This document shows positions 40,386 to 45,884 of a stretch of 64,000 nt of DNA, piece after piece. This DNA is from Halorhabdus utahensis DSM 12940. GTDB lineage: Archaea > Halobacteriota > Halobacteria > Halobacteriales > Haloarculaceae. How positions within the stretch are numbered: the stretch's first letter is position 1; every line of letters begins with the position of its first letter. The translations under genes were made by a program, and so were the position numbers. The DNA lies in assembly GCF_000023945.1 (NCBI RefSeq), contig NC_013158.1:930001-994000 (forward strand), in the 5' to 3' direction. The notes beneath the pieces are model-generated. The model worked only from the letters and a program-made list of their open reading frames with translations. It ran no database searches and was not told the DNA's origin.

Positions 40386-41264
40386 TCAAACCGTCTCCAT
40401 CTCGCGTTCGAGTTCCTGGAGGCGATCGATTCGCTTCTCCGTCGAGGGGTGGGTCCGGAAGAGGTTGGCGATCATCCCCTTCGAGATCGGGACGATGAAG
40501 AAGGCGTTCATCTCCGACTGGCTTCGGAGGTCCTCCTTGGGAACGCGGTCCATCCGATTGTCGATCTTCGCCAGCGCGGAGGCCAGCGCCGAAGGTTGGC
40601 CGGAGATGATCGCGCCGCCTCGATCGGCCGCGTATTCCCGGTACCGCGAGAGGGCCCGGATCAAGATGTACGAGACGATCCAGACGACCAGCGAGACGGC
40701 GATCGCGACGAAGATACCGCCGCCACCGCCCCGGCGGTTGCGCCCGCCGCCGAACAGCCATCCCCACCGGACGATCATGAACGCGATCGTCGAGAGGAAG
40801 GAGGCGATCGTCATCACCACGACGTCGCGGTTCTTGATGTGGGCGAGTTCGTGGGCGATGACACCCTCGAGTTCGTCTTGCTCCAGGGTCTCCATGATTC
40901 CCGTCGTCACACAGACCGTCGAGTTCTTCTTCGAGCGCCCGGTCGCGAAGGCGTTCGGGACCGAGGAGTCGGCGACGGCGACGTCAGGCTTGGGGAGGTC
41001 GGCCTGCTGGGCCAGCCGGGAGACGCTCCGGTGGAGGTCGGGGTACTCGTTCTCGTCGACCCGTTTCGCGCCCATGCTCCGCAGGGCGAGTTTGTCGCTG
41101 AAGAACAGCTGACCGAACGAGAACAACCCCATCACGACGACGATACCCACGAGGCCGACGCCAGCGGACGCGAGGACGCCGACGAAGACGATGTAGAGGG
41201 CAAACAGCAGGAACATCGTCACGACCATGCGCCCGCGCAGCCCCCAGTCCGGTTGCCACTGCAT
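40386..41264 (-). CDS. htpX: Membrane zinc metalloprotease HtpX (M48)
   Basis: A 292-residue M48 protease with four hydrophobic segments and the zinc motif VIAHELAHIKNRDVV. NAFATGRSKKNSTVCVTTGI and a Gly/Arg loop (GGGRNRRGGGGG) are typical. HtpX degrades misfolded membrane proteins under stress. A degraded copy of its first codons and upstream region lies at 42764-42839. Confidence 0.93.
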   Translation of the reverse strand: MQWQPDWGLRGRMVVTMFLLFALYIVFVGVLASAGVGLVGIVVVMGLFSFGQLFFSDKLALRSMGAKRVDENEYPDLHRSVSRLAQQADLPKPDVAVADSSVPNAFATGRSKKNSTVCVTTGIMETLEQDELEGVIAHELAHIKNRDVVVMTIASFLSTIAFMIVRWGWLFGGGRNRRGGGGGIFVAIAVSLVVWIVSYILIRALSRYREYAADRGGAIISGQPSALASALAKIDNRMDRVPKEDLRSQSEMNAFFIVPISKGMIANLFRTHPSTEKRIDRLQELEREMETV

Positions 41265-41408
41265 ACGGGGGTCGTAGGCGGTCAGGGAAGAAAACCCCTC
41301 CGGGCACGGATACGGACCGGCCGACTGCCTCCACCGGAGCTATCACTCACCCCCAATATCAGGGGTACAGGTGGGAACACTCTTGGGGGAGACGCCGGAT
41401 TGGGCTGT

Positions 41409-42638: not shown

Positions 42639-42682
42639 CGAGAACGCGCCGCTTTTAGACGCCTGTCCCCTGCGGAAACCCA

Positions 42683-42763
42683 ATGACGCGATCGGGTGCG
42701 TTCTGTCCGCGCTGTGGCGATCCAATCGAGTGCGGCCCTGGCAAACGGCCGGACCACTCGGCC
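42683..42763 (+). pseudogene. Fossil 5' fragment of nmd3
   Basis: The first codons here (MTRSGAFCPRCGD) and the bases upstream repeat the start of intact nmd3 at 44748. The first 39 bases differ at only one position. Similarity fades after about 80 bases and the frame soon stops. Confidence 0.75.
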
Positions 42764-42839
42764 GCCCGCGCAAGTCCCAGTCCGGTTGCCACTGCAGACG
42801 GGCACACGTAGGCAATTCAGGGAAGGACACCATCCGGGC
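42764..42839 (-). pseudogene. Fossil 5' fragment of htpX with its upstream region
   Basis: On the minus strand this encodes LQWQPDWDLRGR, against MQWQPDWGLRGR at the HtpX start (41264). The ATG has become CTG (42794-42796), and the upstream bases also align with 41265-41305. It joins directly to the nmd3 fragment. Confidence 0.7.
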
Positions 42840-42976: not shown

Positions 42977-43082
42977 GTTCGCCAATATAGCCGAATGTAG
43001 TATTAGTTCGCTTTCTAAGCCGAATACATGATTGATTCACTTCTAAAGCCGAATGTGTGGTTTGTTCGTCCTGATCACGAAC
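42977..43082. promoter_or_regulatory. Four phased dyads, 29-base period, upstream of the satD-like gene
   Basis: Dyads of the form (R)TTCG-N9/10-CGAA(Y) start at 42977, 43006, 43035 and 43064, exactly 29 bases apart. The first three share AGCCGAAT; the third has TTCA for TTCG, and the fourth is the palindrome GTTCGT-N7-ACGAAC. A BRE/TATA-like CGAAATACTGATAT follows (43095-43108). The array looks like a multi-site operator for the downstream operon. Confidence 0.65.
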
Positions 43083-43139
43083 TCCGACCGCAGTCGAAAT
43101 ACTGATATGAGTTGGCCCAAAAACCCGAACCTGGTCCCA

Positions 43140-43159
43140 ATTCGGCAAATGAGGCGAAC
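43140..43159. promoter_or_regulatory. Fifth dyad, inverted, abutting the satD-like start
   Basis: ATTCGGC-N6-GGCGAAC is the inverted complement of the first dyad's outer bases. It ends 2 bases before the ATG, covering the ribosome-binding position. Occupancy would block expression, suggesting autoregulation. Confidence 0.55.
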
Positions 43160-43161
43160 AA

Positions 43162-43827
43162 ATGAACGAGGACAGTGCCACTCCCCGATACGTCGCACTG
43201 ATCGGAGACATCCGCGGTTCCCGGGAGCTGGCGGACCGCAACGAAGTACAGAATGAATTCAAAAGCGTTGTAGACTCCCTCAACAATCACGTTCCGGACA
43301 GGTCTATCGCGTCACCGTTCACCGTGACGACAGGAGACGAGTTCCAGGTACTCCTCACGGATGCCAAGGCTGGCGTCGAAGCTGCGGTCTCGGCGAGCGA
43401 TCAGTTCCACCCGGCCGGATTGCGATTTGGGATCGGCCAGGGCGAACTGGACACGGCGGTTAATCCGGATCAAGCCATCGGGATGGATGGCCCATGCTTC
43501 CACCGAGCCCGGGAAGCGATCAACTCGGCTCGAAAGGACGGGGCGTGGATCCGCGTGGCCGGTTGGTCGAACGGGATCGACGACCACGTCAATTCGATGT
43601 TCGACCTGGTGCAATGTGTCCGTGAGGATTGGACGGACCGACAGGCCCAATTTGGGCGGGCACTGAAGGAAGAAGACACGCAAAAACGTGTCGCGAGCCG
43701 CTATGGGGTCTCGAAATCCACCGTCAGCGAATCACTCAGTGCCGGACACGTCCATGCGGTACGGGCTGGGGAGAACTCGCTTGGGACGTTACTACAGGAC
43801 ACCTTCCCCGGCGGTGAGAGCCCATGA
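43162..43827 (+). CDS. SatD-like protein with palm-like motifs and a C-terminal helix-turn-helix
   Basis: A 221-residue protein I assign to the SatD family. Residues 10-26 (YVALIGDIRGSRELADR) place Asp16 after a hydrophobic strand, and 56-63 (TTGDEFQV) give a G-D-E turn like the GGDEF or cyclase palm. This is a resemblance, not proof of nucleotidyl cyclase activity. Residues about 170-192 (TQKRVASRYGVSKSTVSESL) form a helix-turn-helix that could bind the dyads upstream. It overlaps the DUF3307 gene (ATGA). SatD is named after a streptococcal acid-tolerance locus. Confidence 0.75.
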   Translation: MNEDSATPRYVALIGDIRGSRELADRNEVQNEFKSVVDSLNNHVPDRSIASPFTVTTGDEFQVLLTDAKAGVEAAVSASDQFHPAGLRFGIGQGELDTAVNPDQAIGMDGPCFHRAREAINSARKDGAWIRVAGWSNGIDDHVNSMFDLVQCVREDWTDRQAQFGRALKEEDTQKRVASRYGVSKSTVSESLSAGHVHAVRAGENSLGTLLQDTFPGGESP

Positions 43828-44579
43828 CCGGGTGGTTGACCGCGCTCGGGCCGGAGGGGACGGCCCTCGCATTGCTCCTTCTGGGTCACGTCCTCGGCGA
43901 CTTCGTCTTCCAGACGGATGCACTGGCACGGAACAAACACAGATGGGGGCCACTGCTCGCTCACGCCGGGATCGTCCTCCTCGTCCACGGTGTCGCGTTC
44001 ATCCCGCTATTGACTCCCCAAACGGTCCTGATCATCGGCTTCGTCGGCGCCTTTCATTTCCTCATCGACGCCGTCTCGGCCCGGATACGAAAGCAGAGGG
44101 CGGCGTCTGCGCATCTCTTTCTCGGGGATCAGATGGCTCACCTGGTGGTCCTTCTCGTTGGCTGGTCCCTGATCGACCCCTCGGCCTGGACGAACGCGCC
44201 GGTTGTGACCAGCCTCGGCGGGGAAACCTCCCTACCCTGGTCAGAAATGACCATCGGGGCGGTGTACCTCTCCGCGTTCGTCTTCGCTCACGAAGGCGGA
44301 AACACGATCGTCCGCGGAATCCTCCCGGCAGACGGCCCCGAATCTCCGGAAGGGGATCTGGAGGCTGGTTCCCTCATCGGGAGCTTAGAACGGTGGCTCA
44401 TCCTCGTCCTCGGCCTGGCTGGCCGCTGGGAAGCGGTCGCGCTCGTGGTGGCGGTCAAGTCGATTGCTCGTTTTGAGGAGCTAAAGCAACGTCCGTTCGC
44501 CGAGTACTTCCTCGTCGGAACCCTGGCCAGTGTGCTGGTGGCAATCGCGCTGGTAGTACTCGTCTCTGTCCTGGTGTGA
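43824..44579 (+). CDS. DUF3307 integral membrane protein
   Basis: A 251-residue protein with six or seven hydrophobic helices and the DUF3307 signature. Polar residues recur inside helices: His22 and Asp26 (GHVLGDFVFQ), His78 and Asp82 (FHFLIDA), and Asp102, Gln103, His106 (GDQMAHL). This suggests a membrane metal site, perhaps a membrane hydrolase. The function is unknown. It is coupled to the satD-like gene, so the two probably act together. Confidence 0.8.
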   Translation: MTGWLTALGPEGTALALLLLGHVLGDFVFQTDALARNKHRWGPLLAHAGIVLLVHGVAFIPLLTPQTVLIIGFVGAFHFLIDAVSARIRKQRAASAHLFLGDQMAHLVVLLVGWSLIDPSAWTNAPVVTSLGGETSLPWSEMTIGAVYLSAFVFAHEGGNTIVRGILPADGPESPEGDLEAGSLIGSLERWLILVLGLAGRWEAVALVVAVKSIARFEELKQRPFAEYFLVGTLASVLVAIALVVLVSVLV

Positions 44580-44747
44580 GAACGGGGGCGACACCTGCTT
44601 GCCGAAGACAGTGTCGTAGATATGAACCCCACGGGAACTGAAGCAACGACAACGTCGACAGACACCGAACACTCCTGAGAGAAGCCCACAGATCCAGGAC
44701 GACCGAACCCGCGCCGTTTTTACAGACCAATCCCCTACCGCAGTGTA

Positions 44748-45884
44748 ATGACGCGATCGGGTGCGTTCTGTCCGCGGTGTGGCGATGCGATCGAGAGCGA
44801 CCCGACCGAGCGGCCGGGCCAGCCTGGCGCGCACGATCCCGACAGCGTGCTGTGTGACGCCTGCTACTTCGAGGAGTTCGACCTCGTGGACGCGCCCGAG
44901 CGGATCGAGGTCCGCGTCTGTTCGCGGTGTGGGGCCGTCCACCGGGGCAATCGGTGGCTCGACGTCGGTGCGGAGGACTACACCGACGTCGCGATCGAGG
45001 AAACCAGCGAGTCGCTGGGTGTCCACCTCGATGCGACCGACGTCTCCTGGCAGGTCGCGCCCGAGCAGGTCGACCGCAACACGATCCGGATGCACGCGAC
45101 GTTTTCGGGGGTCGTCCGCGGGACGGCGGTCACCGAGGAGGTGGTCGTCCCCGTGAAGGTCTCCCGGCAAGTCTGCACGCGGTGTGGCCGGATCGCCGGT
45201 GGGTCCTACGCCTCGACCGTCCAGGTGCGGGCACGCGACCGGACGCCGACCGACGACGAGATCGAACGTGCCAAAGCGATCGCCCACGAAATCGTCGCCG
45301 ACATGGAAGCGACGGGCGCTCGTGACGCGTTCGTCACCGAGGTCGGCGAGGACGACGACGGGGTGAACATCAAGGTCTCGACGACGAACATCGGCAAGCA
45401 GATCGCCAGCCGGATCGTCGGCGAGTTCGGCGGATCCTTCTCGGACTCGGAGACGCTGATCACCGAGGACGAGGACGGCAACGAAGTCTACCGGGTGACC
45501 TACGCCGTCCGGTTGCCGCCCTATCGACCAGGCGAGGTTATCGACCCGGAGGACAGTGACGGGCCGGTCATCGTTCGGAGCGTCCAGGGCAATCTCAAGG
45601 GAACGCGGCTGAAGACCGGCGACGCCTACGAGGCGAGTTTCGAGGCGGGTAATGCACCCGACGCCCGACGGCTTGGCGATCAATCCGACGGCGTCGAGAC
45701 GACGCTGGTGGCGATCGAGGACGACCACGCCGTGCAGGTGCTCGATCCCGAGACCTACGAGACCAAATCGATCCCGCGACCGGACTATCTCGACGCCGAC
45801 GCCGAGACAGTTCCGGTGTTGAAATCGCGAGCCGGGTTGCACGTCCTCCCGAGCGGCGAGGCGGACGAGATCAACGATGAGTGA
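44748..45884 (+). CDS. nmd3: Nmd3-like ribosome-associated zinc protein
   Basis: A 378-residue archaeal Nmd3 homologue; the eukaryotic protein is the 60S subunit export adaptor. Cys motifs are FCPRCGDAIES, LCDACYFEEFD, VCSRCGAVHRGNRW and VCTRCGRIAGG, making two zinc sites, followed by an OB/SH3-like region (VVRSVQGNLKGTRLKTGD). It overlaps the next gene by 8 bases. Its first codons are duplicated as a fossil at 42683. Confidence 0.9.
   Translation: MTRSGAFCPRCGDAIESDPTERPGQPGAHDPDSVLCDACYFEEFDLVDAPERIEVRVCSRCGAVHRGNRWLDVGAEDYTDVAIEETSESLGVHLDATDVSWQVAPEQVDRNTIRMHATFSGVVRGTAVTEEVVVPVKVSRQVCTRCGRIAGGSYASTVQVRARDRTPTDDEIERAKAIAHEIVADMEATGARDAFVTEVGEDDDGVNIKVSTTNIGKQIASRIVGEFGGSFSDSETLITEDEDGNEVYRVTYAVRLPPYRPGEVIDPEDSDGPVIVRSVQGNLKGTRLKTGDAYEASFEAGNAPDARRLGDQSDGVETTLVAIEDDHAVQVLDPETYETKSIPRPDYLDADAETVPVLKSRAGLHVLPSGEADEINDE

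Follow-up and report, generated by a model that had tools for sequence, protein, structure and literature searches.

A fixed-period operator array precedes satD, which is paired with a membrane protein gene across Bacteria and Archaea

The gene satD, which encodes a predicted cyclase-fold protein with a C-terminal helix-turn-helix (HTH), is preceded by a fixed-period operator array that is general across lineages, a new finding. The analysis started from the window, a stretch of 64,000 nucleotides at positions 930001-994000 of a single-contig, 3,116,795-base haloarchaeal genome. The identity of the two genes of the satD cassette, their pairing, the predicted fold of SatD, its metal aspartates, the phased arrays and the co-variation between array and HTH are established here by computation. 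On these grounds we propose a model, to which we give an even chance, in which SatD is a nucleotide-responsive autoregulator guarding a possibly harmful membrane protein.

The initial annotation had described a SatD-like/DUF3307 operon, and this is confirmed: both genes are real, and their reading frames are both present and overlap by 4 bases as claimed.

43162-43827, forward strand: satD, 221 aa; PF16264, E 2.7e-30; AF2 pLDDT 94.7, pTM 0.90
43824-44579, forward strand: gene of the partner membrane protein, 251 aa; PF11750, E 7e-17; AF2 pLDDT 94.6, pTM 0.91

The first protein belongs to the SatD family (PF16264; 106 bits against a curated cut-off of 29, covering profile positions 1-196 of 211), and the second carries an N-terminal DUF3307 domain (PF11750; 62 bits against a curated cut-off of 23). 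The neighbours of the cassette encode an M48 peptidase, an FAD-dependent oxidoreductase with a match to the catalytic domain of geranylgeranyl reductase, and NMD3. In the literature searched, SatD (PF16264) and DUF3307 (PF11750) have no described mechanism, pairing or operator array, DUF3307 receiving a single passing mention; satD of S. suis is entered as a DNA-binding protein. Restriction, transport and CRISPR-component mechanisms were dropped, since no domain match was found for them.

The pairing of the two genes was examined from the side of the partner. The SatD alignment was too divergent for scanning collections, and a motif from the C-terminal part of the partner was used instead on 84,980 species genomes, giving at least 535 relatives, the best 80 of which were fetched. 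A SatD homologue lies directly upstream on the same strand in 80/80 of these loci (the best 80 of at least 535), and many of the pairs overlap by 4 bases. The fetched loci span Halobacteria, methanogens, Bacteroidota, Chlorobi, Chloroflexi, Clostridia, Gammaproteobacteria, Alphaproteobacteria, Planctomycetes and others. Among 341 Halobacteria genomes, 39 encode SatD, and 38 of these 39 also have the partner module; in one of the 38 a TnpB-type gene lies between the two. The satD gene and its partner are one unit with obligate pairing, which hundreds of bacterial and archaeal genomes carry without an assigned function. In the neighbourhood survey, no further family adjoined the pair at over a dozen loci, the recurring ones coming mostly from one genus; the neighbourhood is kept across 11 Pedobacter-type loci.

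The home genome holds a second, divergent SatD pair at 2575.6-2576.7 kb (locus L002, 1034-2145), in which GVDE replaces GDEF with a one-residue insertion, the partner consists of the C-terminal module only, and the pair adjoins a CobA-like cobalamin adenosyltransferase gene. In another locus (L007, 514-1980, minus strand), a haloarchaeal SatD has a fused 270-residue C-terminal extension, and no partner was recognised in that locus.

SatD is laid out as a class III cyclase-like palm (about residues 5-135) followed by the HTH (about residues 157-195). A resemblance to palm-type cyclases had been noted initially from a hydrophobic strand ending in Asp16 and a later GDE turn. The strand (YVALIGD), the turn (G58-D59-E60) and the C-terminal HTH (helices 159-171, 174-181 and 185-194 of the AF2 model) are all present, and structure prediction and fold comparison point to a class III cyclase/GGDEF-type palm. 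When a profile of 67 SatD homologues was compared with the PDB, its first half matched the cyclases Ma1120 (E 2.9e-5) and Rv1900c (6.8e-4), and its second half matched HipB-type HTHs (HipB HTH, 4e-4). The SatD model scored Z 11.8-11.5 against class III cyclases (VIA; Foldseek 9.3e-5), Z 11.3 against GTP cyclohydrolase III and Z 11.1 against GGDEF domains (VIA), and Csm1 and the Panoptes OptS palm polymerase were among its Foldseek matches.

D16, S20 and D59 are invariant in the 67 homologues, and Q62 is kept in 65 of them. The suggested conservation therefore stands for Asp16 (67/67) and fails for Glu60 (S in 34, E in 21), the invariant residue that accompanies Asp16 being Asp59. The printed alignment places D16 and D59 opposite the DI and GD aspartates of Ma1120, which are its metal ligands, and SatD likely binds a metal-nucleotide. 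Among the same 67 homologues, the base-reading Lys of the cyclases is not conserved (position 55 is mostly I, L or V), and neither are the transition-state Asn and Arg (position 112 is mostly A and position 118 mixed, the register of both being placed by hand from the G110 motif). Since these residues are missing, SatD is doubtful as a cyclase-type signal synthase, and the standard cyclase reaction seems doubtful as well.

The dedicated operator array reported in front of satD is real. It comprises six dyads of the form TTCGSC-N6-GSCGAA, for which no strand is assigned.

42978-42995: operator dyad 1, at -184, TTCGCCAATATAGCCGAA
43007-43024: operator dyad 2, at -155, TTCGCTTTCTAAGCCGAA
43036-43053: operator dyad 3, at -126, TTCACTTCTAAAGCCGAA; position common to orthologues
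43065-43081: operator dyad 4, degenerate, at -97, TTCGTCCTGATCACGAA, 5-base spacer; position common to orthologues
43112-43129: operator dyad 5, at -50, TTGGCCCAAAAACCCGAA; position common to orthologues
43141-43158: operator dyad 6, at -21, TTCGGCAAATGAGGCGAA, immediately 5' of the start codon; position common to orthologues

The steps between the six dyads are 29, 29, 29, 47 and 29, and the 3.1-Mb genome contains 7 copies of the exact dyad, two of them in this array. Four sites at about -126, -97, -50 and -21 are kept in six orthologues from other haloarchaeal genomes, with gene starts corrected in two of the six.

The same kind of array is found far beyond the haloarchaea. Of 66 loci, 51 have a significant phased dyad array upstream of satD (p<=0.02; shuffling predicts 1.3), although the loci are phylogenetically related and the p values therefore overstate their independence; about 15 of the 66 show no significant array. 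The lag is 28 in 33 loci, 29 in 14 and 30 in 3. Control lag windows reached at most 7/66, the double period of 55-59 was seen in 36/66, and control stretches from elsewhere in these loci were significant in 7/185. A lag test that makes no assumption about dyads found a lag of 28-30 in 38 of 72 loci (52%) versus 5% of control stretches. The result was replicated in haloarchaeal loci retrieved through SatD instead of the partner (23/26 at p<=0.05).

The half-site sequence depends on the lineage: TTCGGC in haloarchaea, TATCGG in Pedobacter and Chitinophaga, ACAACC in Prevotella, GCAACC in Alphaproteobacteria, TTAGCC in Vibrio and Marinomonas, and ATAAGG in a methanogen. Half-site distance follows recognition-helix distance after cyclase-domain distance has been removed (partial Mantel r 0.22, p 0.0005), and among distant pairs it correlates with the helix (r 0.275) and not with the cyclase domain (-0.06). 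E190 accompanies a TCG half-site in 13/16 cases versus 5/35 (Fisher p 7e-6, ignoring phylogeny). Since the half-sites vary by lineage and track the recognition helix of SatD, SatD itself appears to be the binder. It very probably binds the array upstream of its own gene and very probably switches its own operon through these sites, 28-29 bases apart. Three sites span 84-87 bp, about eight turns of DNA, and such spacing would suit an ordered assembly of SatD. Judged from sequence, the operator array together with the HTH, and hence predicted DNA binding, is the best supported function of SatD, which gains a fold, a partner and, for each lineage, a probable DNA target deducible from sequence.

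The constant part of the partner is its C-terminal module, and the DUF3307 domain is optional. In 69 sequences, G182, I185, G186, E189, R190, K212, S213, R216, F217, G232 and S236 of this module are invariant, and E227 is also listed among its residues. The DUF3307 domain is absent from many partners, including the second haloarchaeal copy, those on Agrobacterium and Sphingomonas plasmids and those of several methanogens, and partners with the C-terminal module only are very small (about 120-150 aa). No Pfam model matches the C-terminal module; DUF3307 is the only domain recognised in the partner, and no nucleotide-binding or cyclic-nucleotide-binding domain was found. Profile and fold searches of the partner against the PDB gave at best a Foldseek E of 0.36 and a VIA Z of 7.1. 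Since these scores lie inside the noise for helical bundles, we claim no fold relative.

The DUF3307 part forms four helices bearing H22, D26, Q30, K38, H47, H78, D82, D102, Q103 and H106. The motifs pointed out in the initial annotation were recovered in predicted helices as H22-x3-D26, H78-x3-D82 and D102-Q103-x2-H106, and the membrane His/Asp residues are conserved at about 93-96%, gaps counted. At window positions 43887-44141 (partner residues 22-106), TM1 and TM3 each bear H-x3-D, with an H in TM2 and D-x3-H in TM4. This pattern looks like a duplicated two-helix metal site within the membrane, and the His/Asp-rich DUF3307 domain is perhaps a metal site.

The cassette was initially placed in an insertion-like island. 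Its absence at this site in the closest congener G006, whose NMD3 is 98% identical and which lacks a 3.4-kb block from the oxidoreductase through the partner, fits that description, as do the flanking repeats.

42645-42770, forward strand: degenerate direct repeat of the NMD3 5' end, second copy at 44710-44835 (126 bp, 76%), apparently a recombination scar bounding the cassette
42763-42802, forward strand: remnant of the htpX 5' end, 90% identical to 41230-41269

Over 42645-42802, between the oxidoreductase gene and satD, the NMD3 and htpX gene-start remnants are fused side by side at 76-90% identity, a donor-like divergence. The description holds only in part. Upstream of NMD3 in the congener G005 (L146), a decayed partner gene with stops and frameshifts remains and satD is gone, the only partner without SatD that was met. 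This pseudogene sits at the same place, which makes this an old site from which the cassette is disappearing within the genus. An old cassette that was repeatedly lost, leaving scars of homologous recombination, seems the simplest account, rather than a fresh insertion.

We consider that SatD would act as a one-component autoregulatory DNA-binding protein. Its palm, which keeps the two metal-ligand aspartates, probably holds a metal-nucleotide, and its HTH would sit, as dimers, on the 18-bp dyads that recur every 28-29 bp over its own promoter. Bound SatD would hold the operon low, and a nucleotide or stress signal may alter the palm so that the array is released. The output would be the co-transcribed membrane protein, with its universal C-terminal transmembrane module (invariant E-R / K-S-x2-R-F / E-Y), often fused to the four-helix DUF3307 domain. 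Unrestrained, this protein is probably harmful, and satD would then be a guard or an antitoxin-type repressor, a suggestion drawn partly from published Tn-seq. Repression, nucleotide sensing and a harmful output are what we infer; SatD may also act as an activator rather than a repressor. The fuller claim is put forward tentatively: a previously undescribed, domain-spanning system in which a cyclase-fold transcription factor, co-operative on a 28-29 bp phased array, would sense a nucleotide via its palm and restrain a membrane effector of new fold, co-transcribed with it and harmful on release. If true, the palm of cyclases, GGDEF proteins and Cas10 would here serve as a repressor sensor and not as a signal synthase.

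In a meta-analysis of S. pyogenes transposon data (Tn-seq), no accessory gene other than satD ranked in the top quarter for essentiality, and satD is present in 178/249 S. pyogenes genomes (PMC11323703). If satD restrains a harmful partner, a gene of this kind, needed wherever tested and yet missing from 29% of strains, is what one would expect, and the guard model would offer a simple explanation for its scoring as essential though dispensable to the species. The one partner gene met without satD, that of G005, is a pseudogene; this, like the S. pyogenes result, is an indirect argument for a guard. In S. mutans, non-polar satD mutants are reportedly viable (work ascribed to Kremer, 2001), which argues against a strict guard in that species. 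A purely regulatory role of SatD alone leaves the invariance of the two metal aspartates unexplained, and this counts against the regulator model.

A milder reading is that SatD is a stress or metabolic regulator, sensing nucleotide level or acid stress and tuning a benign membrane enzyme or transporter, so that the partner is not toxic. Vertical retention in Pedobacter and the housekeeping neighbours agree with it, the conserved His/Asp set of DUF3307 suggests an enzyme or ion path, and the sat name derives from acid tolerance in S. mutans (cited in PMC11323703). We nevertheless regard this reading as somewhat unlikely, since an essential yet accessory satD in S. pyogenes would be odd for a benign regulator and many partners have no DUF3307 domain. 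A Panoptes-like arrangement keeps the guard and moves it to the nucleotide: a nucleotide product of SatD would keep the membrane partner switched off, the partner would be freed once SatD or its product is lost, and DNA binding would set dosage only. The layout of a cyclase-type protein with a membrane protein, the palm fold with D16 and D59 invariant, the OptS match and the essential-accessory behaviour of satD in S. pyogenes are in line with this. It is improbable in our judgment, given the unconserved base-reading Lys and transition-state Asn/Arg, a partner without a recognised nucleotide-binding domain, and the very small size of the C-terminal-only partners.

The initial annotation had read the pair as a signal synthase with a membrane effector, in the layout of defence systems. 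This is upheld in part, by the fold, the gene pairing, the invariant Asp16 and the conserved membrane His/Asp residues; the missing cyclase Lys and Asn/Arg and the absence of a recognised nucleotide-binding domain from the partner speak against it. The defence layout was not borne out, as neither protein was matched up to E 1 by PADLOC-DB, including its PycC and effector models, and the surroundings are mostly housekeeping: 112 flanking proteins compared with PADLOC and Pfam were mainly of this kind, with a few restriction and helicase matches. Searches of viral contigs for partner relatives and of phage records for SatD both came back empty, which makes it unlikely that the cassette is carried by phages. 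On a Sphingomonas insulae plasmid (L020, 3201-7652), a SatD-DUF3307 pair adjoins a TIR gene and a cyclase/effector operon of Pycsar type, and one plasmid copy of the cassette lies near HipA and HEPN genes. The case for a defence role of the cassette is weak; the patchy distribution and these plasmid copies are what speaks for it. Its specific form would be Pycsar-like antiviral signalling, with SatD making a cyclic nucleotide upon infection and the partner acting as an abortive membrane effector. The class III cyclase fold, the membrane partner, the patchy spread among Halobacteria (39/341) and the plasmid copy beside a Pycsar system are in its favour. We hold it to be very unlikely in view of the missing PADLOC matches, catalytic Asn/Arg and cyclic-nucleotide-binding domain, the rarity of defence genes among chiefly housekeeping neighbours, and the neighbourhood conserved in the 11 Pedobacter-type loci.

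Viewed as the nucleotide-responsive autoregulator proposed above, SatD can be set beside several known systems. It has the fold and the two metal-ligand aspartates of class III cyclases (Ma1120, Rv1900c and Rv1264), and differs from them in its minimal size, its HTH fusion and the absence of the base-reading Lys and the transition-state Asn/Arg. It belongs to the same superfamily fold as the palms of GGDEF proteins, Cas10/Csm1 and mCpol (Panoptes OptS) and as GTP cyclohydrolase III; unlike GGDEF and Cas10 palms, it has no GGDEF or GGDD motif and carries instead a GDxFQ hairpin and a predicted C-terminal DNA-binding domain. The cassette resembles Pycsar (PycC with PycTM or PycTIR) in placing a cyclase-fold protein beside a membrane protein, whereas its partner has no cyclic-nucleotide-binding domain, PADLOC gives no match and a strong autoregulatory array is present. 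With autoregulated toxin-antitoxin operons of HipB-type repressors, it shares an overlapping two-gene operon with the regulator first (80/80 loci), an HTH protein with putative operators before its own gene, and the guard-like essentiality reported for satD. It departs from these operons in its cyclase-fold regulator, its long arrays of 28-29 bp period and its multi-helix membrane output, which would be the toxic component.
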